Assembly (NCBI GenBank): GCA_002839605.1
Contig: PGYK01000003.1
Span: 160,229 to 224,228, forward strand
Source: Methanomicrobiales archaeon HGW-Methanomicrobiales-3
GTDB taxonomy: Archaea > Halobacteriota > Methanomicrobia > Methanomicrobiales > Methanospirillaceae
Length of the DNA: 64,000 nucleotides
Reading direction: 5' to 3'
Notes under the pieces: generated by a model
Databases searched by the model: none
Seen by the model: the letters and a program-made list of their open reading frames with translations, nothing else
Told to the model about the DNA's origin: nothing
Part shown: piece by piece, positions 6,970 to 24,981 of the stretch
Numbering within the stretch: position 1 is the stretch's first letter
Layout of the letters: every line of letters starts with the position of its first letter
Program-made: the position numbers and the translations under genes

Positions 6970-9732
6970 ATGACCACGAAATGGGTGTACTCGTTTAACG
7001 AAGGAGACGGGAAGAACAAGAAGCTGTTGGGCGGCAAGGGCGCAAACCTCTGCGAGATGACGCAGATCGGCCTGCGGGTGCCGCCCGGTTTTGTGATCAC
7101 GACCGAGGCATGCCTTGCGTACCTCGATAGTCCCGACCGGGTGCTTCCTGGCGGGGTTATTGAGCAGGTCCATCGTGAACTTGCCGAAGTGGAGAAGAAG
7201 AGCGGCCGGAAGTTTGGCGGCAGGACACACCCGCTTCTCGTTTCGGTCCGGTCCGGTTCGGCAATATCCATGCCGGGCATGATGGACACGATCTTGAACC
7301 TTGGCCTGAATGCCGGGACCCTGCAGGGGCTCATCGAAGAGACCGGCAATGAGCGGTTCTGCTACGATGCGTACCGGCGCTTCATCCAGCTCTTCGGGAA
7401 GGTTGCCCTCGGGGTTCCGGAAGCGGAGTTTGACGAGGAGTTCAACGCGGTCAAGGAGAAAGCCGGCGCCCGGCACGATGTCGATCTCTCGGCAAAGGAC
7501 CTTTCCGATATTGCAGAGCGGTTCCTCTCGGTTGTGAAGCGGAGCACCGGCAGACCGTTCCCGTCCGATCCGTTCGACCAGCTGGAGATCGCCATCCGGG
7601 CAGTCTTCAACTCGTGGATGGGCAAACGTGCCGTTGATTACCGGCGCGAGTTCAGGATCACCCCCGACATGGCCAACGGGACAGCGGTCAACGTAGTCGA
7701 GATGGTCTTTGGCAACATGGGCAACGATTCTGCAACCGGTGTCGGATTCACCCGCGACCCGGGGACGGGAGAGAACGTCATGTATGGCGAATACCTGGTC
7801 AATGCCCAGGGCGAGGACGTAGTTGCCGGCATCCGGACACCCCGGCCGGTAGCTGCGATGGCCGAGGAGATGCCGGAACTCCACCGCCAGCTTGTGGAGC
7901 TGCGCAACAAGCTCGAAGCCCATTACAAGGAAGTCCAGGACTTCGAGTTCACCATCGAGAAGGGAACCCTGTACTGCCTCCAGACACGGAACGGCAAGAT
8001 GAACGCGTCGGCGCTTGTCAAGACCTCGGTCGAGATGGTGAACGAGGGGCTCATCGACAAAAGAGCAGCCCTCCTGCGGATCCAGCCCGAGCTTCTCGAA
8101 CAGCTCCTCTTCCCCCGGCTGGATCCCAACGTGACAAAAGAGCCCATTGCAAAAGGCCTGCCGGCATCGCCCGGCGTTGCCATCGGTATCGCTGTTTTCG
8201 ATGCCGACCGGGCAGAGAAACTCGGCCGGACCGGCGAACGGGTCATCCTTGTCCGGGAAGAGACAAAGCCAGAAGACATCCACGGGTTCTTTGCTTCGCA
8301 GGGGATTCTGACGAGCCGGGGCGGCAAGACCTCCCACGCCGCAGTGGTTGCCCGGGGCATGGGCAAACCCTGCGTCTCCGGCGCCGAGGGCATCCACGTG
8401 GATGTCAAGACCCGGCAGGCCCGGGCCGGCAACTGGGAATTCGGCGAGGGTACGCTCATCACCATCGATGGCACAACCGGCGCGGTCTATCTTGGCGAAG
8501 TTCCGGTGATCGAGGCAGTGTTCTCAAACGAACTTGCCACCCTGCTTGCATGGGCTGATGAGACCGCCCGGCTCAGGGTCATGGCCAATGCCGATACCCC
8601 CGAGGATGCCGAGCGGGCGGTCAGGTACGGCGCCATGGGGATCGGCCTCTGCCGCACCGAGCGGATGTTCAACGGGGTCGAGCGCCTTCCAGTCATGATC
8701 GAGATGATCGTTGCCGAGACAAAAGAGGACCGGCAGGCAGCCCTTGACCGGCTCCTGCCCATCCAGCGCGAGGACTTTAACGGGATCTTCCGGGCCATGT
8801 CCCCGCGGCCGGTCACGATCCGGCTTCTCGACCCGCCCATCCACGAATTTCTTCCTTCCGAGCACCTGCTGGTTGACGAACTCGAAGAGCTTGAAAAACT
8901 CCGGGACATCCTGCGGGGGATGAAAGTCTTATCTGACGCAGTAGTGTTCATGAACCACTCAAAGGACACCATGCCGCAGGTCCAGAAGTTCACCGACCCG
9001 GCGCTCGTGGACGAAGCGATAACGAGAAAGAAGACCATCCTTGACAAAGTCCGTGCCCTGCACGAGGTCAATCCCATGCTCGGGCACCGGGGCGTACGGC
9101 TCGGTCTCACCTTCCCCGAGATCTACACGATGCAGATCCGGGCAATCCTTGAAGCCGCGGCCGAGTGCCAGAAAGCCGGCATCGAGGTCCACCCCGAGAT
9201 CATGGTGCCGCAGGTCTGCACGGCGCAGGAACTCCGGCGGGTGAAGGTCTGGGTGGACGAGATCCGGTTTGAGGTCGAAGAGACCTACAAGGTGAAACTC
9301 GACTTCCGGTTCGGCTCCATGCTCGAAGTGGTCCGTGCCTGCATGCGGGCGGACAATCTTGCAGAGCAGGCCGAGTTCTTCAGCTTCGGAACCAACGACT
9401 TAACGCAGGCAACCTTCTCCTTCTCCCGCGAGGATGCCGAGAACAAGTTCCTGCCCATGTACAACCAGAGCGGGATCTTGCAGGACAATCCCTTCGAGGT
9501 GCTGGACGTGAAGGGTGTCGGCCGGCTCATGGAGCAGGCCGTCACGTGGGGACGGAGAACCCGGCCGGACATGAAAGTCGGGATCTGCGGCGAGCATGGC
9601 GGGCACCCGGCCTCGATCCGGTTCTGCCACTCGATCGGTCTTACGTATGTCTCCTGCTCCGGGCCCCGGGTGCCGATCGCCCGGCTCGCAGCAGCCCACG
9701 CGGCGCTGCTGGAAGAGAAGAAGACGGCGTGA
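6970..9732 (+). CDS. ppdK: pyruvate, phosphate dikinase
   Basis: Interconverts pyruvate, ATP and phosphate with phosphoenolpyruvate, AMP and pyrophosphate, linking pyruvate from CO2 fixation to gluconeogenesis. The length of 920 residues fits the family (about 870-920). The N-terminal ATP-grasp opens with GGKGANLCEM and VRSGSAISMPGMMDT. The swivelling phosphohistidine domain holds His456 in GGKTSHAAV. The C-terminal PEP/pyruvate TIM barrel carries LGHRGVRLG, FGTNDLTQ and the catalytic Cys873 in GICGEHGG. SGSAISMPGM and FGTNDLTQATFSFSR favour PPDK over PEP synthase. A GGGGAGA ribosome site precedes the ATG. It is a single gene with its own leader. Confidence 0.97.
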   Translation: MTTKWVYSFNEGDGKNKKLLGGKGANLCEMTQIGLRVPPGFVITTEACLAYLDSPDRVLPGGVIEQVHRELAEVEKKSGRKFGGRTHPLLVSVRSGSAISMPGMMDTILNLGLNAGTLQGLIEETGNERFCYDAYRRFIQLFGKVALGVPEAEFDEEFNAVKEKAGARHDVDLSAKDLSDIAERFLSVVKRSTGRPFPSDPFDQLEIAIRAVFNSWMGKRAVDYRREFRITPDMANGTAVNVVEMVFGNMGNDSATGVGFTRDPGTGENVMYGEYLVNAQGEDVVAGIRTPRPVAAMAEEMPELHRQLVELRNKLEAHYKEVQDFEFTIEKGTLYCLQTRNGKMNASALVKTSVEMVNEGLIDKRAALLRIQPELLEQLLFPRLDPNVTKEPIAKGLPASPGVAIGIAVFDADRAEKLGRTGERVILVREETKPEDIHGFFASQGILTSRGGKTSHAAVVARGMGKPCVSGAEGIHVDVKTRQARAGNWEFGEGTLITIDGTTGAVYLGEVPVIEAVFSNELATLLAWADETARLRVMANADTPEDAERAVRYGAMGIGLCRTERMFNGVERLPVMIEMIVAETKEDRQAALDRLLPIQREDFNGIFRAMSPRPVTIRLLDPPIHEFLPSEHLLVDELEELEKLRDILRGMKVLSDAVVFMNHSKDTMPQVQKFTDPALVDEAITRKKTILDKVRALHEVNPMLGHRGVRLGLTFPEIYTMQIRAILEAAAECQKAGIEVHPEIMVPQVCTAQELRRVKVWVDEIRFEVEETYKVKLDFRFGSMLEVVRACMRADNLAEQAEFFSFGTNDLTQATFSFSREDAENKFLPMYNQSGILQDNPFEVLDVKGVGRLMEQAVTWGRRTRPDMKVGICGEHGGHPASIRFCHSIGLTYVSCSGPRVPIARLAAAHAALLEEKKTA

Positions 9733-9824
9733 GATTTTTTTTCGTCCACTCTTTTTTCGTTTATCCGGGTTTTTCCTGCTCTGCACACGGGAGATGACGG
9801 TAATGAATAGAAAAAAATGCGTGT

Positions 9825-10298
9825 GCTCTGTAGAAACGCACATGAACCGATTGGGTTCGCACCCGAATGATGAAAAACGCTACCTTTTTCTTAGGGGGTT
9901 CTCCGGTTCAGGAACTCGATACGGTACTGTGGGGAAATTACCGGATATGATATCAACCCGAATTGAGGCCGCCGCGGGGCGCCCTTCGGGGCGGCGGCAG
10001 GAATCGCAACCGGGGGCATGGGGGCTTCAGCCCCCATAATCTATTATTCTGGAAATTTGTTTTTCATTTAAAAAACCTGCCAGAAATCATAGATTGATCT
10101 GCGATGGAGCCACGGGCGCTCGGGGTCTCATCGACCCTCGCCCCGTGGAGCAGGCCGTAAATGGGTGCCTGAAACAAAATGAAAGAACCGGGGGTCAAGG
10201 GGGCTTGCCCCCTTGGGGTGCCTCACCCTCTGAGGGGAGAGAGGGGGTCACCATCGTAATTCTACAAAAGGACACTGTGGGAATGTTTTCTACAGAGC
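9825..10298 (+). mobile_element. MITE-like element, copy B (full length)
   Basis: A 474-bp element between ppdK and a surface-protein gene. The left end is GCTCTGTAGAAACG (9825-9838) and the right end GTTTTCTACAGAGC (10285-10298), so the terminal inverted repeat is nearly perfect over about 12 bp. Internal order matches copy A: CATGAAC/CACCC/ATGAAAAA module, GC-rich hairpin near 9970-10000, a GGGGGC-TTCA-GCCCCC hairpin near 10022-10036, then the 220-bp module from 10077 with the palindrome CAAGGGGGCTTGCCCCCTTG. Short ORFs inside do not stay in frame between copies, so it is treated as non-coding. Confidence 0.78.
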
Positions 10299-10387
10299 CA
10301 AAGCATGAGTTTTTAAAAAAGAACAAATCAGGATAAAATCCGGAAGATTTGACAACATTTATGGATTGAACATGCATATTTTTCCAA

Positions 10388-11407
10388 ATGTCATCTCCAT
10401 TCAATGACAACACTTCCTGTTTCCGGCAGATGATCCTGCTGCTGATCCTGGCAGGTACCGCTGCATTGTTGCTACCCCCGATATCCGCAGATTCGGCAAT
10501 TACCATCACCGCACCAGGGGACCAGTCCTATTTCCTTGGAGAAACGGTGGTTTTCACGGGTACGAATGATGAAACGGATACAACCTACCTCTTCCTCATG
10601 GGACCAAACCTTCCAAAGGAGGGGGCACAACTAACTTCACCGTATCAACCGGTAACCAGCGGAGATCCCGGCTCCTTTGCCACGGCACCAACAAAACCGG
10701 ATAACACGTGGGAATATCCCTTTCTTACCGACAATCTTGGGATCGGTCCGGGAACCTACACCGTTTATGCCGTGAACAATCCGGTAACGAAAGACCAGTT
10801 GACCAGTGGATCCTATAATACGATCAGCATAATCCTCAAACGACCGTTTGTTACAGCATGGATCTCTCCACAATCAATCATCAAAGGACAGCCGTCCACG
10901 GTCACCGGATCTGCGGACGGGGACCCGGGCGAGGTCCAGCTCTGGATTATCGGGTACGACTACGCGTATACGGAAACAACCACGGTAGATCCCGATTCAT
11001 CGTATCGTTTTATCCTTGATTCACCAACAACAGAAAAATTTTCCAAAGGGCCCTGCTCGGTCATCGTCCAGCACCCGATGCAGAACAACCAGCTTGATGT
11101 CGTTGTCAGTGGCGATTTTGTCAAAAATCTCCAGATCAATGACGGAAGCGGGACGGGCGGTATGAACGTCTTCAGGATCAGTGGCCCAGGAAGCCTGAGG
11201 GGGAGCGACACGACAGATGCACTCATTAGTGCGATCAACGATCCCAGTGTGGACGACATCTATGCCCTGATCCAGACCGAGGTTGTCGATACGGGTGTTT
11301 CAGCGTTCCAGGCACAGACTCCTACGACCCGGCCGGCCCCTCTCCAGTACGCACCGTTCGGGGCACTCGCCCTGATCCTGGGAATCATCCTGTGGAGCCG
11401 GCGGTAA
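10388..11407 (+). CDS. secreted, membrane-anchored surface protein (DUF3821-type family)
   Basis: A 339-residue exported protein. A hydrophobic signal segment spans about residues 15-33 (ILLLILAGTAALLLPP), followed by beta-rich repeats, and a C-terminal membrane anchor (about 318-336) ends in Arg-Arg. Phrases such as TTYLFLMGPNLP, GPGTYTVYAVN, SIILKRPFVTAW and VIVQHPMQN are, from memory, shared by the large DUF3821-associated surface proteins of Methanomicrobiales. The usual N-terminal half of that family looks absent here, so this is a short version. It starts 90 bp after MITE copy B and ends shortly before copy C. An envelope role is inferred. Confidence 0.75.
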   Translation: MSSPFNDNTSCFRQMILLLILAGTAALLLPPISADSAITITAPGDQSYFLGETVVFTGTNDETDTTYLFLMGPNLPKEGAQLTSPYQPVTSGDPGSFATAPTKPDNTWEYPFLTDNLGIGPGTYTVYAVNNPVTKDQLTSGSYNTISIILKRPFVTAWISPQSIIKGQPSTVTGSADGDPGEVQLWIIGYDYAYTETTTVDPDSSYRFILDSPTTEKFSKGPCSVIVQHPMQNNQLDVVVSGDFVKNLQINDGSGTGGMNVFRISGPGSLRGSDTTDALISAINDPSVDDIYALIQTEVVDTGVSAFQAQTPTTRPAPLQYAPFGALALILGIILWSRR

Positions 11408-11450
11408 CAGCCATTTTTTTATTCTCCGGTATTTTCACCACATTTTTTCT

Positions 11451-11778
11451 GCTCTGTTAAAACGCCCATGAAAGAAGGTTCACACCCAAACGATGAAAAT
11501 GCATGGAACGTAAAACAGACGTCCCCGCCCATATCCCTGCACTCCTTATGGGGGCGGCAAGACCCCCCTCGTCGCACAATGGTCGGGCTGCGGAAGTGAT
11601 AGTATTCCTTAAGGTCTGAATGCGGGACACTCAAAACAGGTGATTTCCCGGGAAATTTTCATGAAAAAACCAGAAATTAAAGCCGCCACGGGGTGCACTT
11701 CGGATTGGCGGCAGTAATCCCCACGAGGGTATAGGGGCATCAGCTCCCGTCTTTAAAAAAAGCGGTTTTCACCAGAGC
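11451..11778 (+). mobile_element. MITE-like element, copy C (lacks 220-bp module)
   Basis: A 328-bp element. The left end is GCTCTGTTAAAACG (11451-11464) and the right end CGGTTTTCACCAGAGC (11763-11778). It has the CATGAAAG...CACCC...ATGAAAA left module, a GC hairpin near 11680-11715 and a degenerate GGGGCATCAGCTCCC hairpin near 11738-11752. The module shared by A, B and E is missing, so the right terminus directly follows the hairpins. It is more diverged than A and B, which suggests an older insertion. Confidence 0.65.
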
Positions 11779-11842
11779 GCTAAAAAAAAGAGAATTTTCC
11801 GGTTATTCCCGGAAGATATTCTGTCACAAGCAGGCCATCGGC

Positions 11843-13201
11843 TTACTTCATTACCTGGTCCAGCCAGTCGAAGAGCTCCTGTGCCACAAGGCTCCGGTTC
11901 TCCATGGTGCAATGGTTGGTCGCACCTTCGTCACTCGGGAGGATGACCATCTTCTTCTGCGGGTTTGGCAGGCCGTCCATAATCACCTTCTGCTGCCGCT
12001 GCACTTCCTGGCTCTTGTAATCGCCCTCTCCGACAAGGATCAGCGCCGGGACTTTCACATCCGCCGGGTCGAACGTGAAACCCTTGTTGGCGTCAGCGAG
12101 ACCCCCGGGGTTGTCCATCGACACTCCCCAGCGCCAGCAGATCACTTTTACAACGTTTGCATGGAAAGAGGACCAGGTGGCCTTTTCTTCCGGGGTTGCG
12201 ATGACTGCCGGCATGGTGGAAAAGAGCGGGTAGGCATCAACTACGCCGGAATTCATGGCAATCGCGGCTATCCGCGGGTCCTTTGCTGCAGCCTCCGACA
12301 CGAAACCGCCGCCCCCGCTGTACCCGTACGCGGCAATCTTTTTGGGATCAACGTCCGCCCGGCTCACGGCATAGTCCACAACCGATCTCATCGGCACGTC
12401 CATATCCGGGCGGAAGGTTTTGTTCTGTGCCGGCATCATACCCTGTCCGGGCAGGTCAACGGTTATGAAATTGTACCCGCGGTCATGGGCCTGCGGGGCG
12501 ATATAGAAGAAGAGATCTTCAGCAAAGGTCTCCCCGCCACCGATCATGATCAGGGTTTTTGCCGGCTTGTCACCGGATGCTTTCCAGAAGTAGCCCGGTA
12601 TGACCGTTCCCTCGTACGGGATCTCGATGTATTCCAGCGGGGGGTCGAACAATTTCCCGGCTTTCTTGAGCAATTCGCGGCTCTTGTCCGCCCGCTCCTG
12701 CATGCGGGGGTCATCGGGCAGCATGGAGATGAGCGAGATGCGGTAATAGTAGGCAGCACGCTGGAGCTGGTCGCGGGCGCTCACGGAGTGACCGGCCGCA
12801 AGCGACTGTTCGCCACGGGCCTCGGCACGCTGTGCCATGCTGAACCATTCCTCCTGCCAGCTGGCAGCATCGCCGTCATTAATCTTCACGGCAGTATTGA
12901 ATGCTTCACCGATCTCGACACCATGGTTCACCGCAGATCCCAGGATGAGCGTTCCGAAATGGAAGTCCATATCCGAGTCCGCAAAATGGTAGCTGACCCC
13001 GGTATCGTGGGCATCAAAGACCGCGGTTGTCCCCGCAGTGTCGTCATTTTTTTCAGACACCTGCGCAGGGGGGGCAGTTGTTGTCGTGACCGGCAGGGTG
13101 CCGGTATCCCCGGTGCCCGGGGAGGGGTCGGCAGGTGCGGTGCACCCGGAAGCGAGCAGTGCAAGAATGACAAGCACGGTAACAATAGCCTGATTATTCA
13201 T
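11843..13201 (-). CDS. alpha/beta hydrolase lipoprotein
   Basis: A 452-residue predicted cell-surface esterase or peptidase-like hydrolase. The N-terminus has a lipobox (LLASGC) with lipid-modified Cys at about 20, followed by a Thr/Pro-rich spacer (about 21-55). A helical region (about 60-190) precedes the hydrolase domain. The nucleophile elbow is GYSGGGG near residue 295, the acidic residue probably lies in VGEGDY, and His in NHCTMEN near the C-terminus completes the triad. The layout (helical N-part plus hydrolase) resembles FrsA/COG1073-type esterases. It stands alone on the minus strand; substrate unknown. Confidence 0.8.
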   Translation of the reverse strand: MNNQAIVTVLVILALLASGCTAPADPSPGTGDTGTLPVTTTTAPPAQVSEKNDDTAGTTAVFDAHDTGVSYHFADSDMDFHFGTLILGSAVNHGVEIGEAFNTAVKINDGDAASWQEEWFSMAQRAEARGEQSLAAGHSVSARDQLQRAAYYYRISLISMLPDDPRMQERADKSRELLKKAGKLFDPPLEYIEIPYEGTVIPGYFWKASGDKPAKTLIMIGGGETFAEDLFFYIAPQAHDRGYNFITVDLPGQGMMPAQNKTFRPDMDVPMRSVVDYAVSRADVDPKKIAAYGYSGGGGFVSEAAAKDPRIAAIAMNSGVVDAYPLFSTMPAVIATPEEKATWSSFHANVVKVICWRWGVSMDNPGGLADANKGFTFDPADVKVPALILVGEGDYKSQEVQRQQKVIMDGLPNPQKKMVILPSDEGATNHCTMENRSLVAQELFDWLDQVMK

Positions 13202-13449
13202 CCTTCTCTATCATGAGGTGTGCATAAAAAAAGGTTGTGAAATGGATCCCCGTGCCGGAACGCCGGGGTCTTTTGCCGGAAGATGGCGCTTTTTTGGTAA
13301 ATCCCGGCGGGCCAAAAATTTCCCCCGGATTTTTTTAAAATTAACGCAGAGATGAATTCCATTTTTCGTACAACCCCCAGGAAAAGGAACGGTTTTGATC
13401 ATCCGGCATCACTTCTATCTCCCTTCCCCGCCAACCAGTGTACCAGTAC

Positions 13450-14070
13450 ATGCCCCGCCCGACTCTTCCGGAAAACAAATCCCCTCTCACCGGCCCCCCG
13501 TTCTACCTCCCGGAGTTCGAAGATTCCTACCGCTACATCATCGACGAATATGAGGTGGAGCCAAAGAAGATTGCCATCTTCATGCCCTGCGCGGTGAGAA
13601 AACCCTACAGCGCGAGCCCGAGCCACCAGCTCATCCGCTCGATCATCGGCCAGGTGCTGAAGCCCGAAGAGTATCATATCGTGATCTTCGGCACCTGCGG
13701 GATCGTTCCTGCGGAACTCGAAGAGATGTACCCGTACGCCCATTACCAGTACATGCTCGGGAAGTGCAAGGACAAAAAGACCCTTGACGATTTCCTTGAG
13801 ATCGAGACCGGGCGCGTTGCCGGGTATTTGGAAAAGACACAAGACACCTACCAGTACCGCATCGGGTACTGCATCGGGCTCTTCCGGCAGGCCCTTATCC
13901 ACGGCTCTGAAAAATCCGGCATCCCCATCGACCTGATCCTGCCCTCCCGCGATCTCATCAACAGGGTCATCGAAGAGGGCGACTGCATCTTTGAGGAGGG
14001 AAGCCTCTCGATGGACGAGTACCTGGGCGAGTTCTGCGATAGTCTTATTGCGTTCCGGAACGGGCATTAA
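13450..14070 (+). CDS. DUF5591-type protein related to an archaeosine synthase domain
   Basis: A 206-residue soluble protein. Features such as FMPCAVRKPYSASPSHQ, VIFGTCGIVPAELE and LILPSRDLI match what I recall of the DUF5591 domain of ArcS, the archaeal enzyme acting on preQ0-modified tRNA at position 15. Here the domain stands alone without the PUA or TGT-like parts, so it may be a paralogue rather than the enzyme. The ATG at 13450 is preferred to GTG 13438 as it begins at the proline-rich family start; neither has a clear ribosome site. Family assignment is from motif memory and moderate. Confidence 0.6.
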   Translation: MPRPTLPENKSPLTGPPFYLPEFEDSYRYIIDEYEVEPKKIAIFMPCAVRKPYSASPSHQLIRSIIGQVLKPEEYHIVIFGTCGIVPAELEEMYPYAHYQYMLGKCKDKKTLDDFLEIETGRVAGYLEKTQDTYQYRIGYCIGLFRQALIHGSEKSGIPIDLILPSRDLINRVIEEGDCIFEEGSLSMDEYLGEFCDSLIAFRNGH

Positions 14071-14327: not shown

Positions 14328-15845
14328 TTATTTCTTGAGTTTTCGTGTGTAAAACATTCCGATAATCAGGATCCCGGCCACCGGAACGACCAGTGACAGC
14401 GGCGCTTGCGTCTTCGTGGGTGTCGGCGTCGGTTTCGTAGTCGTTGGAATTGTCGTGAGCGTTGTCGTGACCGTGGTTGTTACGGTCGTGGTCGGCTGCG
14501 TGGTGATGGTAGTCGGCGGAAGGTTCGTGACCGTGATGTAGTTCGGTTTAGTTATCGAATTGAATCCATCCTCGTTGGTCGCGTTCAGCGAGACGGTGTA
14601 ATTGCCCGGTGCTGAGTACGTGTGCACCGGGTTCTGCTCCGTGGTGTTGGCACCGTCCCCGAAGTCCCAGTGCCAGCCGGTCGGTATGTTTGATGAAGTG
14701 TCGTTGAACGATACCGTCAGCGGTGCAGGGCCGGTTTCCGGTGTGCCGGTAAAGTTGGCAACGGGTGGAGCCGGGTCGCGAACGGTGACGAGGAATGGTT
14801 TCTCCATCGTGTCGCTGCCGAGATCGTTCCAGGCCCGGAGCGAGACGTTGTATGTGCCTGCGGTGTTGTAGGTATGCGCCGGGTTCCGGTCGGTCGAGTT
14901 GGTGCCGTCGCCGAAGTGCCAGTGCCATTGGGTTGGCGAGGTATCGGAGGTGTCGGTGAAGTTTACACTTAGTGGGGTCTTGCCGGAGATTGGTGTTGCG
15001 GTGAAGTTCGCGAACTGCCGGGCGTAGATCTGGAACGACAGGTAAGAACCGGATGAAGTGTTGCCGTAAAAGATCCAGACCGGTTCCAGCGTTATTTCCG
15101 GATTCTCAAGACCTTTGGCATAATATCCGAGAATCGTGCTGTATACATAGGCATCTTCACCAATACCCAGAGTGGGATTCAACACTTCGCCGTCCCTGAG
15201 CTTTACCGTCGCTTTACTGAATGGGATAACGGAGACATTCCCGGTATGAGTATACGTCCGCCATCGCTTATAAATCCAGACAAGCTCCCCGTTCTCTCCT
15301 AAAATAACCTGAATGGTATCACGGTCACCGACAACGGGTCTTCCATCAACCATCCTCCACCAGGAAACGGATGTGTCCAGAGTGATGGTTTCTTCTATTT
15401 GTAAAGTTGTTCTGTTTACAAGTTCCCCATAATTCGTTACAGCGCCAGTCAATATCGCATCAGATGGCAATCCCCCATAATTCTCAAGAATTTGTTTTGC
15501 AACTTCGGGTGCATCCTTTTCTGAAGTAACATTGTTTCTCGCATGGAACTCCCCCGGCATCTCATCCACCAAATCTCCTGCTAAGAACACCCCTTTGTAA
15601 ACAGGTATGGATGCAGGAGAATCAGGTATCGTTACATTAAGGGTAATGTTCCCAATCGATCCCGCGTATATATTCACATTTTCACCGGACACCGTTCCCG
15701 TGAATTGCATTTTTTCCGGATGATTATCCTCATTTTTCATTTCGGGAGCATTTTGCAGAATTCCTGAAAACATCAGTCCTGCACAGAATGCTGAAAAGAC
15801 TATTGCAGCCAGAATAATTTTAATGCCAGTTTTCATCTCATTCAC
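14328..15845 (-). CDS. PKD-domain surface protein
   Basis: A 505-residue exported protein. A signal or anchor helix spans residues 7-27. A unique domain (about 50-270) with beta-rich sequence follows, then two PKD domains at about 277-355 and 365-445, each with the WHFGDG/WDFGDG and HTY...GxYxVSLxA signatures. A Thr/Pro-rich linker (447-478) leads to a C-terminal membrane helix ending RKLKK. This is the classic layout of an archaeal wall-spanning protein. Its ATG overlaps the stop of the upstream NHL gene by 4 bp (ATGA), so the two are translationally coupled and probably work together at the cell surface. Confidence 0.85.
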   Translation of the reverse strand: MNEMKTGIKIILAAIVFSAFCAGLMFSGILQNAPEMKNEDNHPEKMQFTGTVSGENVNIYAGSIGNITLNVTIPDSPASIPVYKGVFLAGDLVDEMPGEFHARNNVTSEKDAPEVAKQILENYGGLPSDAILTGAVTNYGELVNRTTLQIEETITLDTSVSWWRMVDGRPVVGDRDTIQVILGENGELVWIYKRWRTYTHTGNVSVIPFSKATVKLRDGEVLNPTLGIGEDAYVYSTILGYYAKGLENPEITLEPVWIFYGNTSSGSYLSFQIYARQFANFTATPISGKTPLSVNFTDTSDTSPTQWHWHFGDGTNSTDRNPAHTYNTAGTYNVSLRAWNDLGSDTMEKPFLVTVRDPAPPVANFTGTPETGPAPLTVSFNDTSSNIPTGWHWDFGDGANTTEQNPVHTYSAPGNYTVSLNATNEDGFNSITKPNYITVTNLPPTTITTQPTTTVTTTVTTTLTTIPTTTKPTPTPTKTQAPLSLVVPVAGILIIGMFYTRKLKK

Positions 15846-17854
15846 CTCGGTTCCTCATTACAACGCCACTGATCGCGATAGAGTGGCCCTTCTACGGAAT
15901 CAGGAGTGACACCGGTTCCAATATCTGGCAAATGATCGCCAAATGCTTGATTTATGTTGCCAAAAACTACAGCGGCAACCGGTATTTCTTGAGGGCTGTT
16001 GTAATCCGGTTTACCATCTATCGTCCCGGAAGGAACAGGATCATTTTTGTATAAGACATACGTCGTTTTTCTATATGCTGAATAAATCGTTTTCTTCTCA
16101 TCGATCGCATAATGGAAGAAACGATTGGTAAATTCCGGATTGACATTCACCATCGTTTTGAAACCCAATACTCCATGTGATGTGGATAACGCTTTCCCCC
16201 AGCGATCATCAACAAGGGCATAACAGGAATGAAGAATTACCCATTTGTTTTTATTCCCCCATTTGCCTTCAACATCCGATGGAGAAAGGAAACTACCCGG
16301 TTGGTCGAGCAATCCTAAACCGGAAAGATTTTCCTCCTCCCCATAGGGAATTCCCCCATGGCCGACATGATAGTGCAAGACGGCATCGTTGAGCGTTTTT
16401 TGGTTTGGTGAGGGATTAACACCAAAATCAGATTTTGTGACAGATTCCATCGTGTTATAGAAAACCGGGTCTCCCCAACCGATTCCTTTCAGGGCGTCGG
16501 CCATATTGTCACAATTATCCTTGCCGGCATATTTGCTGAATGTGTTCGTCATCGAATACGTAAACACCTCCGGCACCCCCACCGGTTTAAAAACCTGGAC
16601 CCGGTTGTTATCATCAGTGACATACACATTGCCGGAGGTATCGACAGCGATAGCAAAGGCAAAGTTAAACTGCCCGTTACCGTTGCCGTACGTTCCCCAT
16701 TGGGTGACATACGTACCATCGGATCTAAACTTCTGGACCCGTGAATTGTACGTATCCACGACGTATACATTGCCTGACGTGTCCGTTGCGATACCATAGG
16801 GATGATCAAATTGGCCGTTGCCCGTACCTTTCGTCCCCCATTGGGCGAGGTATGTACCGTCAGAAGAAAACTTCTGGATGCGGTGGTTCCATGAATCCGC
16901 AACATACACATTGCCGGAGGTATCTGCGGCGATTCCATGCAGGTAGTTAAACTGCCCGTTACCGGCACCCTGTGTTCCCCATTGGGAATGATACGCACCG
17001 CCGGAACTGAACTTCTGGACCCGTTCATTTGCAAATTTTTCCGTAACGTAAACATTGCCAGGTGTATCTACTGCGGCGGCCTGAGCAAAATAAAACTGCC
17101 CTTTGTCCGCACCTTGTGTTCCCCATTGGGTGATGAATGTACCGTCAGGACCGAACTTCTGGATACGGAAGTTCCCCATATCTACGGCATATACATTGCC
17201 CGAAGGATCTACTGCAATACCATTGACGTAATAAAACTGTCCGATACCTGAACCGTTCGTCCCCCATTGGGTGACATATGTACCATCGGATCTAAACTTC
17301 TGGACCCGGTTATTATCATCAGTGACATACACATTACCCGATACATCCACTGCGATGCCCTCGGGATTGTTGAACTGCCCGTTGCCCGAGCCGGGAGTTC
17401 CCCACTGCATTAAGTAGACATAGGATTCAGGGTCAGTACTTCCAAGAGTACTTACACTGTTTCTCATAAGGCGGTTACCCGGCGGGTTGTCGTTGGTTTG
17501 TTCATCCTGCCTGGCAGGGGGATAACCGATTTTCCGTGCCAACCTTTGCTCCATCAGCGAACAATTATCCGGACAACTGTGGGTTGCGATCGCCGGTTCC
17601 GTTCCATTAATCTCCTGCAGAGATGTTATCATCACGATAGAACTATTTCCTGTATCGCTGGCGGGTATGGTTGAAAATTCAGTCTCATTGATACCCGGAG
17701 TATCTGCCGGTAAAATGCCAAGGGTCTGGTTTAAATGACCGGTATCAGTTACTGCAATATCCGTCACATTCTCCGCACCTGCTGCCGGCATTCCTGAAAT
17801 TACCATCCAAATCGCCAGAAGAACAATGGTAAGTATCCGTAAATAATTCCTCAA
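15842..17854 (-). CDS. NHL-repeat propeller protein with C-terminal clan CD peptidase-like (DUF6345-type) domain
   Basis: A 670-residue exported protein. A signal peptide (1-27, MPAAGA) is followed by a short region with two Cys, then six NHL repeats (about 145-425), each close to QWGT-G-GNGQF...GIAVD-SGNVYV-D...RVQKF, enough for one six-bladed propeller. The C-terminal 240 residues hold two short motifs, VGHGG with His499 and VILHSCYAL with Cys544. Their hydrophobic-strand settings match the His/Cys dyad arrangement of caspase/gingipain-like clan CD peptidases and the DUF6345 family as I recall it. The start is TTG with GGAGG 8 nt upstream. The PKD gene is coupled downstream. Confidence 0.8.
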   Translation of the reverse strand: MRNYLRILTIVLLAIWMVISGMPAAGAENVTDIAVTDTGHLNQTLGILPADTPGINETEFSTIPASDTGNSSIVMITSLQEINGTEPAIATHSCPDNCSLMEQRLARKIGYPPARQDEQTNDNPPGNRLMRNSVSTLGSTDPESYVYLMQWGTPGSGNGQFNNPEGIAVDVSGNVYVTDDNNRVQKFRSDGTYVTQWGTNGSGIGQFYYVNGIAVDPSGNVYAVDMGNFRIQKFGPDGTFITQWGTQGADKGQFYFAQAAAVDTPGNVYVTEKFANERVQKFSSGGAYHSQWGTQGAGNGQFNYLHGIAADTSGNVYVADSWNHRIQKFSSDGTYLAQWGTKGTGNGQFDHPYGIATDTSGNVYVVDTYNSRVQKFRSDGTYVTQWGTYGNGNGQFNFAFAIAVDTSGNVYVTDDNNRVQVFKPVGVPEVFTYSMTNTFSKYAGKDNCDNMADALKGIGWGDPVFYNTMESVTKSDFGVNPSPNQKTLNDAVLHYHVGHGGIPYGEEENLSGLGLLDQPGSFLSPSDVEGKWGNKNKWVILHSCYALVDDRWGKALSTSHGVLGFKTMVNVNPEFTNRFFHYAIDEKKTIYSAYRKTTYVLYKNDPVPSGTIDGKPDYNSPQEIPVAAVVFGNINQAFGDHLPDIGTGVTPDSVEGPLYRDQWRCNEEPR

Positions 17855-20368: not shown

Positions 20369-21769
20369 TTATCCTTCCTTCTTCTGCCGTTTCAGCACCG
20401 GGCTTTCAGAAAAGACTTTTTCGAAGGGCTCGATCATGTGCTTTTTCATCTCTTTCTGTGCACTCTCCCGCACGGAAGGGATCGAGAGGAGAAGCGAGAG
20501 GAACGTGGTGCTGAGGCGCTGCCGGAGATCGCTCTGCGGGAAATCATAGAGCCCGTGTTTTGTGTAATACGCATGATCGGCCCGGAAGAACGCCCGCATC
20601 TCCGCCCAGATGTCATCGCGGAATATCTTGTGGCCGGCGACTGCGGGAAAGCCGCCCGGTGCCACGTACCCGCTCTTTGACAGGCGGAGGCAGCGGGCTG
20701 CAAGGGAATCGATCAGTTCGTCAACTGCCATCGCGATCCCGTCCTCGTCCGAGACCACCCCGGCCAGGTTTGCGCCCTGCAGGGAGGGGTAGGCCCGCAG
20801 GATCTCCTGCAGGGTTGCACACTGCGCAACCGGCCCTTCGATGAGGAAGCCCACCTGTTTTCCTGCAAATGCCGGTATGTGGCCCATGAAGAAACTCCGG
20901 TCAAAGACCTGCTTGAACTCCGCGGAGAGGTACCGGTCCTTCACGGTGCCGGCAAAGATGATGATGTCGGCAGGGAGCACGGTCTCTTTCCAGAATTCGG
21001 AGAAGCCATCAGTGTACACGCAGGTGTTGTCAAAGGCGCACCGGCAGCAGCCGAGGCACCCGCCGTTCATCTTCGCGTCGTCAATGGGGACGAGCGAGGC
21101 AGCCTTCCCAAACGAGGAGGCGAGGCGCATGGTCATCTTCTCCAGGTTCGAGCCCGGCGCTGCATCAGTGAGGATCAGGACCTGTTTGTCCCCGCAGTCG
21201 AGCGGCATCGGGATGCCCGCGGACTTGTAGTCGGGGCGGGTGCTGGTGATGGGAAGATAGGTGCGCCGGATGGCCGGGTGCTGCTGTGCGGTGGTGAGGA
21301 AGTCCTGCCCGAACCGGACGAGTTCTTCCTGGTGCATCTCTATAAGCAGGTCGTCCATCTTTGCCATGAAGGAGCCGGTCCAGCGCATGCCGAGGTCTTC
21401 GGCGACTGCGTGGAGGTACTCGTTTGCGGTGTGGTCGAAGAAGTGGATGGAGGTGGTGATCGAGGCCGCGTATTTCCCAAAAAAGGCGGAGCCGGCGTTA
21501 TGGGAGAAGAGCAGTTCGATGAACCGCTTGAACTGGGCGGGGACGAGCAGGAAGTAGACCGGCGTTGCGAAGAGGATGGCGTCCGCGGATTCGATTGCCG
21601 CGATGACTTTCTTGAACTCCTCCTCCTTTGCCTCGATTGCCGCGATCCGCTGGCCGATGTTCTCTGTCGTGAATGTGTGGCCGGGATTTGCGCGTTCGAG
21701 GAACCGGACGTACTGCATCGTCACGCTCTCGTTTCCCTTCGGGCTCCCGTTCAGGACGCAGATCTTCAT
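20369..21769 (-). CDS. two-domain NAD(P)H-dependent FMN reductase-like protein
   Basis: A 466-residue flavodoxin-fold protein made of two related halves. Domain 1 (about 1-190) begins MKICVLNGSPKGNESVT, the phosphate-binding loop of the NADPH-dependent FMN reductase family, with FATPVYFLLVPAQFKRF later. Domain 2 (about 205-400) begins VLILTDAAPGSNLEKM, contains a Cys cluster (GGCLGCCRCAFDNTC) as in iron-sulfur flavoproteins, and then FAGTVKDRYLSAEFK. A helical tail follows. It may carry flavin and possibly an Fe-S centre; the physiological role is unknown. A truncated copy of its 5' end lies at 22932-23276. Confidence 0.82.
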   Translation of the reverse strand: MKICVLNGSPKGNESVTMQYVRFLERANPGHTFTTENIGQRIAAIEAKEEEFKKVIAAIESADAILFATPVYFLLVPAQFKRFIELLFSHNAGSAFFGKYAASITTSIHFFDHTANEYLHAVAEDLGMRWTGSFMAKMDDLLIEMHQEELVRFGQDFLTTAQQHPAIRRTYLPITSTRPDYKSAGIPMPLDCGDKQVLILTDAAPGSNLEKMTMRLASSFGKAASLVPIDDAKMNGGCLGCCRCAFDNTCVYTDGFSEFWKETVLPADIIIFAGTVKDRYLSAEFKQVFDRSFFMGHIPAFAGKQVGFLIEGPVAQCATLQEILRAYPSLQGANLAGVVSDEDGIAMAVDELIDSLAARCLRLSKSGYVAPGGFPAVAGHKIFRDDIWAEMRAFFRADHAYYTKHGLYDFPQSDLRQRLSTTFLSLLLSIPSVRESAQKEMKKHMIEPFEKVFSESPVLKRQKKEG

Positions 21770-21911: not shown

Positions 21912-22322
21912 TTACAAGAGAGCTTCAATCTTCCGGATCAGGACTTCCGCATGACTGACCGCGGATTCTGCCTCGGTTTTTGAGATGGAACCGGCCATGT
22001 CATACACCGAGCTGTGGCGCTTGCGCCGCATCCGGTCAAAGATGATCGCATCCTTTGAATCCAAAAAGAGTTCAGCGAATTTCACCACCGATATATGCTG
22101 GTTCGCACCATCGGGGCGGTATCCTTTCGAGAACATCAGTGCCCGGCCGGCCTGGAGAACCGCGTTGTACGCGATCGTGTACGCCCAATCCGTGTCCGTG
22201 GGAAGGATGGCCCGGCAGGTCACGAGGTCCCGGCGGGCAAGAGCAACGGCGTCCTTTACCTTCTTCCGGTCATACGGGAGCTTCCTGATAAGCCCTTCCC
22301 GCTCAAGATCCTCAATCATCAC
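21912..22322 (-). CDS. HEPN-domain protein (putative toxin)
   Basis: A 136-residue HEPN protein. The all-helical fold carries an Arg/His motif in RMRRKRHSSVYD (R97-H103, Tyr107), the region that in MNT-HEPN modules forms the RNase site and can be modified by the partner nucleotidyltransferase. WAYTIAYNAVLQAGRALM is a typical HEPN helix. It overlaps the upstream MNT gene by 11 bp, so the two are coupled. Toxin activity is inferred from the family and context. Confidence 0.82.
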   Translation of the reverse strand: MMIEDLEREGLIRKLPYDRKKVKDAVALARRDLVTCRAILPTDTDWAYTIAYNAVLQAGRALMFSKGYRPDGANQHISVVKFAELFLDSKDAIIFDRMRRKRHSSVYDMAGSISKTEAESAVSHAEVLIRKIEALL

Positions 22323-22875
22323 AGGTTCCGCTGATTTGGATCTTCTCTTCCTGCATTACATTCTTTACGAAAGGATCCTTGTTCTTCCTGCGTGTTCTGA
22401 GTTCCGCTGCTGTCATGAGGGTATAGTTGATCTCCCGGCCGGTTGCCTGCTCGCAGGCATGGATGGCCGGGATAAGCCGGTCCTCATCCACGTCCCCCAC
22501 GATGAAGAGGTCGATATCGCTTTTCGCGCCGGCGGTTCCCTTTGCAAACGATCCGTAGATGAACATGCAGGTGATCTCTTCACCGGCAAGAGATTCTTTG
22601 AGAATTTTGGGGATTCCTTCGGTCTTCAGCACGATCTTCTGGAGATCGGTATAGAGGAAATGACCGGTATTGACTGAATAGTACTGCTGGTTTCCCTTCT
22701 TCTGGCCCGCAATGAGGCCGAATGATTCGAGGTTGGCGAGCTCCCGGCGCACTGCGTTGATGTTCTCGCTTGTCGTGCGGACGATCTCGCGGATATAGAA
22801 CTCGCTCCCCGGGTTGAGCAGGAAGAGCGTGAGGAGCTTGACCCGGGTCTTTGAAGAGATCAGCGCTTCCAGCAT
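22312..22875 (-). CDS. winged-helix nucleotidyltransferase (MNT, putative antitoxin)
   Basis: A 187-residue protein. The N-terminal winged helix (about 1-70: REIVRTTSENINAVRREL, then AGQKKGNQQYY wing) is fused to a minimal nucleotidyltransferase domain (about 95-180) with the GSFAKGT motif and DID metal ligands (AKSDIDLFIVG). In MNT-HEPN pairs the MNT protein neutralises the HEPN RNase, in known cases by adenylylating it. The fused winged helix suggests autoregulation, and two 19-bp palindromic sites overlap the start codon. The start is ATG 22875. Confidence 0.85.
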   Translation of the reverse strand: MLEALISSKTRVKLLTLFLLNPGSEFYIREIVRTTSENINAVRRELANLESFGLIAGQKKGNQQYYSVNTGHFLYTDLQKIVLKTEGIPKILKESLAGEEITCMFIYGSFAKGTAGAKSDIDLFIVGDVDEDRLIPAIHACEQATGREINYTLMTAAELRTRRKNKDPFVKNVMQEEKIQISGTCDD

Positions 22876-22914
22876 GAATACATAATGTATTCAATTGAGT
22901 AAAAAATGTATTCA
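22875..22914. promoter_or_regulatory. double palindromic operator of the MNT-HEPN operon
   Basis: The first site is a perfect 19-bp palindrome, TGAATACATAATGTATTCA (22875-22893), overlapping the MNT start codon. The second, TGAGTAAAAAATGTATTCA (22896-22914), keeps the right half exactly. The sites repeat every 21 bp, two helical turns, as expected for cooperative repressor binding. Binding by the winged helix of the MNT protein is inferred. Confidence 0.6.
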
Positions 22915-22931
22915 TTGTCCGGCAGCCATCG

Positions 22932-23276
22932 GCGTATTTCCGGGGAACACTGCGCCGGCATTGTAGGAGAAGAGCAGCTCGATGAACCGCCTGAACCGGG
23001 CGGGGACGAGCAGGAAGCAGGCCGGCGTTGCGAAGAGGATGGCATCCGCGGATTCGATTGCAGCGATGATTTTTTTTAAACTCCTCCTCGTGTGCCTCGA
23101 TTGCCGCGATGCGCTGGCCGATGTTTTCTGTCGTGAATGTGTGGCCGGGGTTTGCGAGTTCGAGGAACCGGACATACTGTATCGTCACGCTCTCGTTTCC
23201 CTTGGGGCTGCCGGAGAGGACGCAGAGGTTCATGGGGGGGACTCCTGCTTTCCGGTTGGGAGGGGTGGGGGGAAAT
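22932..23276 (-). pseudogene. truncated, frameshifted copy of the FMN reductase 5' end
   Basis: A direct duplicate of about 345 bp of the gene at 20369-21769, including about 45 bp of its upstream sequence. Translation from ATG 23233 matches the first 54 residues of the parent (MNLCVLSGSPKGNESVT). It is then broken by an extra base in an eight-T run (23070-23077), and continues in another frame (IIAAIESADAILFATPACF) to about residue 90 of the parent, where similarity stops. Close similarity indicates a recent duplication. It and the intact gene flank the MNT-HEPN module. Confidence 0.85.
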
Positions 23277-23283
23277 AAGGGAT

Positions 23284-23850
23284 TTATTCGAATAGTTGTT
23301 CCATATCGGCAATCCAACTCGGATTTACTTCAATAAATTGAGATAAACATTTCATCTGCCTTTTTTTACCACGTTTATTATCAATTTTTTTCCCAGTGGA
23401 GTCATTTATTTGAATTTCTAAACTTTGTGGAATAATAAAAAAGAATTGTTTCTGACGAATTTCATAACAATTTTCAGAAATTTGTTTGACTTCCTTTTTG
23501 AGTTCCTTTTTTATCGCATCTTTCACGGTCCTTAATGTTTTTGTGTCTTGATCAAAAATTGCTATGAGAAAGTATTCTGAGTCTCCCCCTTTTAACAACT
23601 CGATAAAAATTTCCAGGCAAATATCTTTGTTTTTCTCATTTTTGATTAATGCAAACTTTTTGGTCGTCCGTTTTAATGAAAATTTTCGATAATTATCTCT
23701 GATAATTGTACTTTCTCCACCACGAATTTTCTCGTTTAATATCTGCTCTTGACTACAATTTTTTCCTGTAATTGAGTTTTTCTCAACAACTAATCGCATT
23801 AAATTTTGATCATGATCTCCTTCACACAAAAAAACAAAAAATTTAGGCAA
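23284..23850 (-). CDS. TOPRIM-like protein paired with an AAA ATPase
   Basis: A 188-residue protein with the two acidic signatures of a TOPRIM fold: FLCEGDHD (Glu10, Gly11, Asp12) after the first hydrophobic strand, and IAIFDQD (Asp100, Asp102) after a later strand. It starts at a TTG immediately after the ATPase stop, with GAGGAG just upstream, so the pair is tightly coupled. The combination equals a split OLD nuclease and recalls AriA-AriB (PARIS) and AbiL pairs, but the TOPRIM partner is shorter than AriB as I recall it. AT-rich like its neighbours. A nuclease role in phage defence is inferred. Confidence 0.65.
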   Translation of the reverse strand: MPKFFVFLCEGDHDQNLMRLVVEKNSITGKNCSQEQILNEKIRGGESTIIRDNYRKFSLKRTTKKFALIKNEKNKDICLEIFIELLKGGDSEYFLIAIFDQDTKTLRTVKDAIKKELKKEVKQISENCYEIRQKQFFFIIPQSLEIQINDSTGKKIDNKRGKKRQMKCLSQFIEVNPSWIADMEQLFE

Positions 23851-24981
23851 TTATACTCCTCGCAAATCTAAAGCAAAATTATCACTGATTTTTAGTGCTT
23901 GTTCTAAAGAATAATCATATCGAGAAATTTTTCCATCATCTAGAACGAATTTCGATATTAAAAATTTTTCACCCATTTTATTGTTTTTACCACATAGCAA
24001 AACCTCTTTGATGAGATCGAAACTATGAGTTGTCATAAAAACCTGAACTTTATACTCATTCGAGAGTTTAAAAAGAATATCTCCGAGGATTGTGATATAT
24101 CCTGGATGAAGGTGGTTTTCAATTTCCTCTATCAATAGAATGCCGTTTTTTGCTTCAATCAATTTTGTAATTATTGTTAATAACGATTTAAATCCGTCTC
24201 CGTAATAAGCATAAGGTAAATATTTAATTTTTTTCTCCCCTTCATTAAGTAGAACACCATCTTCGGTAAGTCTTTCAAAGTTTTTAATAATATTATTTTC
24301 TTTTATTATTCCTTCAACCTTTAGGATATTATCACTATTTTCATGGAATGAAAAATCCAATTTGTTTTCATGATAAATTGAAACCACCTTAATTTTTTTG
24401 GGGTTCTTCTGCGTGGATGAAGACAAATTGAATTCGATCGATGAAAATTCAAATAACAAATGAATAAGCCCACGTCGATCAACGTCTGGGAAATACTTTT
24501 TTAGGGATTCCAAATTTTGTATTCGGTTTTTTTTGTAATTTTTTGAATACGGGAATACTTCGACATGCTTGTGATTCTTAATTAGCGTTAAAAACCGGAA
24601 ATTATTGAAAATGGAATTACATAGGTCGTCAGTTTTGTTATCATCTAGCTCTTTAGAGAAAATTTTTTTTATCTTTTTATTTACTTCTTGGATTATTTCA
24701 TTTTTTACTTTGGAATCAATATCAACGATATCTCTGTAAATTGTAATGTCGTGATCGCCAGATGAAATGCGAGCAATTTTGGAATTAATATTTATTTCAT
24801 ATTCTGGGGATTCAAATGAATCGGGTGAAATATCCCGCGAAAAAAGGCAATTAATCGCACTTAACAAAGTAGTCTTTCCAGTGTTGTTTTTTCCAATTAA
24901 AAGATTGATTTGTTTCGGGTGATACTCCATTTTTTGAATACCTTTGAAATGAAAAATATTTATCTCCTTTAGCTTAGGCAT
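23851..24981 (-). CDS. OLD/RecF-like AAA ATPase of a two-gene defence-type pair
   Basis: A 376-residue ABC-type ATPase of the AAA_15/AAA_21 group. It begins with the ABC-ATPase opening KEINIFHFKGI. Walker A is LLIGKNNTGKTT (residues 28-39), Walker B is GILLIEEIENHLHPG, and the switch His follows in MTTHSFDLIKEV. It lacks a C-terminal TOPRIM domain, which instead is the next gene. Codon use is strongly AT-rich, unlike the surrounding genes, indicating horizontal acquisition. By analogy with PARIS or AbiL it would sense phage and control the TOPRIM partner (inference). Confidence 0.82.
   Translation of the reverse strand: MPKLKEINIFHFKGIQKMEYHPKQINLLIGKNNTGKTTLLSAINCLFSRDISPDSFESPEYEININSKIARISSGDHDITIYRDIVDIDSKVKNEIIQEVNKKIKKIFSKELDDNKTDDLCNSIFNNFRFLTLIKNHKHVEVFPYSKNYKKNRIQNLESLKKYFPDVDRRGLIHLLFEFSSIEFNLSSSTQKNPKKIKVVSIYHENKLDFSFHENSDNILKVEGIIKENNIIKNFERLTEDGVLLNEGEKKIKYLPYAYYGDGFKSLLTIITKLIEAKNGILLIEEIENHLHPGYITILGDILFKLSNEYKVQVFMTTHSFDLIKEVLLCGKNNKMGEKFLISKFVLDDGKISRYDYSLEQALKISDNFALDLRGV

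Follow-up and report, generated by a model that had tools for sequence, protein, structure and literature searches.

The 64,000-nucleotide stretch of archaeal DNA analysed here (the window) encodes an exported protein whose C-terminal domain we assign, from its sequence, to DUF6345 (PF19872), a known Pfam family that is listed without a function. The domain is predicted to have a clan CD-like fold with a His-Cys dyad, and its gene is followed by one for a membrane-anchored protein with a YycI/FTP-PepSY-like domain. By analogy with characterized systems, the first gene probably encodes an exported clan CD cysteine peptidase and the second a YycI-type membrane-anchored partner that tethers, folds or inhibits it. 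We propose more tentatively, at chances a little short of even, that the two genes are an undescribed archaeal two-component surface protease system, in which an inhibitor-chaperone of the YycI/FTP-PepSY fold would act in trans on a secreted clan CD cysteine peptidase. For the enzyme half, the assignment is new in a family that was known but had no explanation; more surprising is that the two genes are conserved as a unit.

The enzyme gene and its domains

The enzyme gene lies on the minus strand and has the following features.

15842–17854, minus strand: DUF6345 (clan CD-like) enzyme gene, 670 aa, with signal peptide, linker, six-bladed NHL propeller and predicted catalytic domain
17786–17854, minus strand: signal peptide or hydrophobic N-terminus, residues 1–23 (hydropathy peak at residues 7–23, score 2.29; boundary approximate)
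16582–17407, minus strand: six NHL blades, residues 150 to about 425 (QWGT repeat starts; NHL and SBBP Pfam matches)
15845–16564, minus strand: DUF6345 domain, residues about 431–670, predicted clan CD-like fold (PF19872 E 3.7e-7, over the cut-off; AlphaFold2 model; fold matches)
16358–16360, minus strand: codon of His499, predicted catalytic His of the dyad (invariant in 49 domains; after model strand 74–78)
16223–16225, minus strand: codon of Cys544, predicted nucleophile (invariant in 49 domains; after model strand 119–123)
16175–16177, minus strand: codon of His560, third invariant residue (invariant in 49 domains)

The open reading frame starts with TTG, with GGAGG 8 nt ahead. Repeated units beginning with QWGT and matching NHL start at residues 150, 196, 243, 291, 338 and 385, and these six blades make up one propeller at the sequence level (Pfam NHL E 2.7e-38). 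The C-terminal domain of about 240 residues that follows them carries the motifs HVGHGG (His499) and ILHSC (Cys544). A preliminary description of this DNA had reported the same coordinates, signal peptide, single six-bladed propeller and motif positions, all of which agree with our reading of the frame, the Pfam matches and the hydropathy profile. Matches to ScyF, PD-T4-6 and other proteins were set aside, as they are driven by the propeller blades only.

When scanned alone, the C-terminal domain matched PF19872 with 30.3 bits, above the curated gathering cut-off of 26.9; a Pfam scan of the full-length 670-aa protein did not report DUF6345. Relatives of the domain match the profile more strongly; at E <= 1, matches are seen in 43 of 49 relatives. 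A literature search for DUF6345 found no paper naming the family. To the Pfam entry, which gives no function, the present analysis adds a clan CD-like predicted fold, a predicted dyad and a conserved partner gene.

The modules that precede the DUF6345 domain vary among relatives. NHL blades are found in the window protein and in genome G159, Kelch repeats in G195 and G141, other propeller-blade-like repeats in G158 and G160, and PKD domains in G160, G134 and, by eye, G180; some relatives have nothing besides a signal peptide before the domain. The propeller, which the preliminary description regarded as an adaptor, is indeed present, but it can be rejected as an essential adaptor since relatives replace it with Kelch, PKD or other modules or drop it. 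On the sequences compared, NHL and PKD appear to be exchangeable extras.

The DUF6345 domain is predicted to have a clan CD-like fold

An AlphaFold2 model of the window domain, built with 11 relatives, reached a pLDDT of 85.6 and a pTM of 0.88 and has the caspase-like alpha/beta/alpha fold that the preliminary description had anticipated. The best PDB matches in Foldseek were caspases 1, 11 and 4 together with C11 peptidases. In a VIA fold comparison, all 50 matches listed are clan CD-fold proteins with Z scores of 11.9–15.2 and rmsd values of mostly 2.9–3.9 Å over about 160–190 residues; among them are CHAT (Z 15.2), metacaspase (13.5), legumain (13.2), MALT1 (13.0), gingipain R (12.7) and separase (12.3), as well as caspases.

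In clan CD, the catalytic dyad sits at the C-terminal ends of two neighbouring strands, His then Cys (PMC4357240). In the model, His499 (residue 80) comes directly after strand 74–78 and Cys544 (residue 125) directly after strand 119–123, which bears out the earlier proposal that VGHGG and ILHSC lie at strand ends as in clan CD. At the level of strand order, the predicted fold thus does not lack the dyad geometry of the clan. Across the family, 49 divergent DUF6345 domains share only three invariant columns, namely His499, Cys544 and His560. As the His and Cys are invariant in domains so divergent, the two motifs are not due to chance, and the invariance of the three columns is the strongest argument from sequence for the predicted catalysis. 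The motif around His560, SHG[IV]LGF, is kept in the 49 domains; in the model this residue opens the strand that follows the Cys loop, a place expected to be away from the dyad.

Links to known clan CD families were also sought by sequence. Pfam scans of the 49 domains gave weak C14 matches in three (best E 0.0024) and a C50 match in one, and no Pfam C14 match for the window protein. The alignment of DUF6345 with archaeal C14 in hhalign covered the HxGHG region only (17 columns, probability 10%), and that with archaeal C25 gave nothing useful (probability 0.2%). At the level of sequence, then, the homology to known clan CD families is weak. Neither the full protein nor the domain alone matched Peptidase_C25 (PF01364) in Pfam, and a sequence and profile search of solved structures with the domain returned nothing useful. 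Of the "caspase/gingipain-like" label given earlier, the fold is therefore upheld by the model and its fold matches, but membership in the C25 gingipains proper is rejected on the missing PF01364 match and the hhalign value. By predicted fold and motif we regard DUF6345 as clan CD-like, but we place it in neither C14 nor C25; the order has separate, true genes of both families. The domain resembles the clan CD peptidases (C14, C25, C11 clostripain, C13 legumain and C50 separase) in predicted fold, strand order and placement of the HG and C motifs, and differs from them in an identity of about 10% and in the third invariant His.

The partner gene encodes a YycI/FTP-PepSY-like domain

The gene that follows has these features.

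14328–15845, minus strand: partner gene, 505 aa, with N-terminal membrane helix, YycI/FTP-PepSY-like domain, two PKD domains, Thr-rich stalk and C-terminal membrane helix
15018–15656, minus strand: YycI/FTP-PepSY-like domain, about residues 64–276 (YycI 2o3o Z 11.2; Pfam YycI and FTP matches in homologues)
15842–15852, minus strand: stop/start overlap with embedded ribosome-binding-like GAGGTGA (direct sequence reading)

The partner frame overlaps the enzyme stop by 4 nt (GTGA). The likelier start is the ATG at 15836; as GAGGTGA stands just before it, translational coupling is plausible. The preliminary description had called this gene a coupled PKD surface protein. The adjacency and overlap hold, and coupling is plausible, but the PKD label misses the conserved part of the protein, which is the YycI/FTP-like domain.

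The predicted model of this domain (pLDDT 80.5, pTM 0.69) has a YycI fold; the domain is extracytoplasmic and follows the membrane helix at the N-terminus. Its closest fold matches were YycI (2o3o; Z 11.2 over 180 residues) and EUBREC_2869 (9.5), followed by a fungalysin propeptide (4k90_B; 8.1), YpeB (7.7), vibriolysin propeptides (7.0–7.3; 3nqy 7.3) and YycH (6.8), after which Z falls to 4.2. Homologues of the partner match Pfam YycI with E values of 4e-7 to 1e-6 (29.0–30.4 bits versus a cut-off of 29.7), and give weak matches to Pfam FTP, the thermolysin propeptide motif; the window partner itself gave no match to the Pfam YycI profile. The N-terminal membrane helix is found in all 20 partners examined, and some partners with PKD tails have a second membrane helix at the C-terminus.

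The two genes are conserved as a pair

Pairing was counted at 50 archaeal loci that carry at least 140 residues of the DUF6345 domain. Pairing was scored as strict where the partner domain was fused or lay on the same strand within −140 to +300 nt downstream, which holds at 43 of the 50 loci. The count rises to 47 of 50 with four loci (L087, L091, L094 and L088_15079) at which the partner is fragmentary, weakly matched or cut by the contig end. As for the remaining three, L100 has its partner on the opposite strand of a short contig, L088_19392 is cut at the end of the locus, and L089_18684 is a second copy in a tandem array of genome G043 with no partner directly downstream. The two fused genes, in G160, have DUF6345 ahead of the partner domain. 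PKD repeats, DUF6345 and a YycI-like domain are joined in two genes of one Methanoregula genome (L090:4544-6985 and 8242-13830), which encode single proteins of 813 and 1862 aa.

The distance matrices of enzymes and partners correlate with r 0.82, a value reached in 1 of 2000 trials when partners were shuffled only among paralogues of the same genome; linkage alone can yield such congruence, so the correlation speaks for joint inheritance and not for binding. The converse of the pairing fails, as partner homologues without DUF6345 occur in G192, G193, G194 and other genomes. The YycI-like homologues of these three genomes are at loci L115–L118; those at L116–L118 come after another kind of exported protein, about 465 aa long.

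Relatives of the window domain occur in 21 of the 232 genomes of the order, and the family profile matches in 40 of the 393 genomes of the phylum; named loci are in Methanoregula, Methanofollis, Archaeoglobus and Methanophagales. A pattern scan of genome contigs, with a closer subset of relatives as the query alignment, returned archaea only, and among 14 control genomes PF19872 matched in Methanosarcina acetivorans only. No relatives were found in viral contigs, plasmids or phages, so nothing in these collections points to a mobile or phage element.

The genome of the window holds one paralogous pair, on another contig (C13; L086:4994-6532), whose enzyme gene is frameshifted near its end; the window copy is therefore the intact one. 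Contig C15 holds one more remnant of a partner gene, which contains a stop. In the G043 array (G043:C1:1402001-1462000; L088 and L089), of ~10 kb, partner genes alternate with some ten copies of DUF6345; in-frame stops or frameshifts are present in several copies.

Possible function of the pair

FTP-PepSY domains are propeptides that control thermolysin-type metalloproteases. To our knowledge, the YycI/FTP-PepSY fold has so far been tied to metalloproteases, spore lysins and kinases. The YpeB protein is encoded in the same operon as SleB, is membrane-anchored, is needed for SleB stability and can inhibit SleB in vitro; it is proposed to hold SleB inactive, and the two proteins are co-dependent (PMC6660665). 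That dedicated inhibitory domains can control enzymes of clan CD is known from the gingipain propeptides (PMC3677877). YycI acts on a histidine kinase as an accessory protein of WalK, and not on a protease (PMC7355866).

The partner is closest to YycI and YycH in its domain fold (2o3o Z 11.2) and, in its minimal forms, in the single N-terminal membrane helix; unlike YycI, a protein of Firmicutes that pairs with a histidine kinase, it neighbours a peptidase-like gene and has PKD repeats added. SleB-YpeB of Bacillus spores likewise combines, in two genes, an exported enzyme with a PepSY-type protein anchored in the membrane (YpeB Z 7.7), although SleB is a cortex-lytic enzyme of bacterial spores and not a peptidase. 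To the FTP-PepSY propeptides of thermolysin- and fungalysin-type metalloproteases the partner is related in fold (4k90_B Z 8.1; 3nqy Z 7.3) and by weak Pfam FTP similarity, whereas those are N-terminal propeptides and the partner is a separate membrane protein or a C-terminal fusion beside a cysteine-type enzyme. Because the folds of YpeB, the partner of SleB, and of the FTP-PepSY propeptides are related to that of the partner, we favour a role for it in tethering, chaperoning or inhibiting the enzyme. Counting against this reading are the weak sequence-level links to known clan CD families, the partner domains that occur without DUF6345, the G043 copy with no partner directly downstream, and the action of YycI itself on a kinase. 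The computations show the family membership, the predicted fold, the invariant residues, the topology, and the conserved pairing and fusions of the genes; we infer proteolytic activity for the enzyme, and its binding and inhibition by the partner. His499 and Cys544 would form the catalytic dyad of the exported DUF6345 peptidase, and the NHL propeller would be an exchangeable binding module. The extracytoplasmic YycI/FTP-PepSY-like domain of the partner may bind the enzyme, help it to fold or to stay at the surface, and keep it inactive until needed. In the window species, the PKD repeats and C-terminal anchor would extend the partner into the cell surface.

The tight pairing would also suit an enzyme that cleaves or matures the neighbouring membrane-anchored surface protein, and in Methanoregula the partner is a large surface protein that has PKD domains and an anchor at its C-terminus. 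We consider this unlikely, as the fold of the conserved part of the partner is YycI/FTP-like, proteins related in this fold are regulators or propeptides, and minimal partners have no PKD tail to release. DUF6345 might instead be a clan CD-fold transpeptidase or ligase of the GPI transamidase or legumain type for the attachment of surface proteins, the partner being its membrane subunit. The surface location, the membrane-anchored partner and the VIA matches to GPI-T (8imy_K Z 12.3) and asparaginyl ligases (Z about 13) agree with this; however, ordinary peptidases match equally well, no substrates with sorting signals were identified and the sequence holds nothing that separates a ligase from a peptidase, so that we rate it as improbable.

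We give similarly little credence to a signalling unit in which the DUF6345 protein serves as sensor or activator, its cleavage event being the trigger, and the partner, like YycI, works by way of a membrane receptor. The closest solved fold of the partner is that of YycI, an accessory of the WalK kinase (PMC7355866), but no histidine kinase was found near the pair among the scanned window genes. A DUF6345 domain that keeps the clan CD fold but serves as a non-enzymatic binding module would fit the weak hhalign links to active families, and pseudo-orthocaspases exist (PMC6426788); this is nevertheless very improbable, since almost nothing but the predicted dyad is invariant across the 49 domains.

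The reading of the pair as a peptidase with a tethering or inhibiting partner gives a testable function to an unannotated family of Methanomicrobiales, Archaeoglobus, Methanophagales and other archaea. It suggests that in archaea a caspase-like enzyme at the surface has a membrane protein of the YycI/PepSY type as its partner. If this reading is true, the principle of a tethered PepSY-type partner extends to cysteine peptidases, and proteolytic control at the archaeal cell surface becomes a question.

Other genes of the window

A flavodoxin/NADPH-reductase-like gene lies at 20369–21769, and 22580–23317 is a second, broken copy of its N-terminal part; a nucleotidyltransferase-like gene (22312–22875) is found beside these copies. 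The low-G+C stretch at 23284–24981 encodes an AAA_15/OLD-like ATPase (PADLOC PDC-M38A, AriA, AbiLi) and an adjoining small open reading frame, which possibly form a defence pair.
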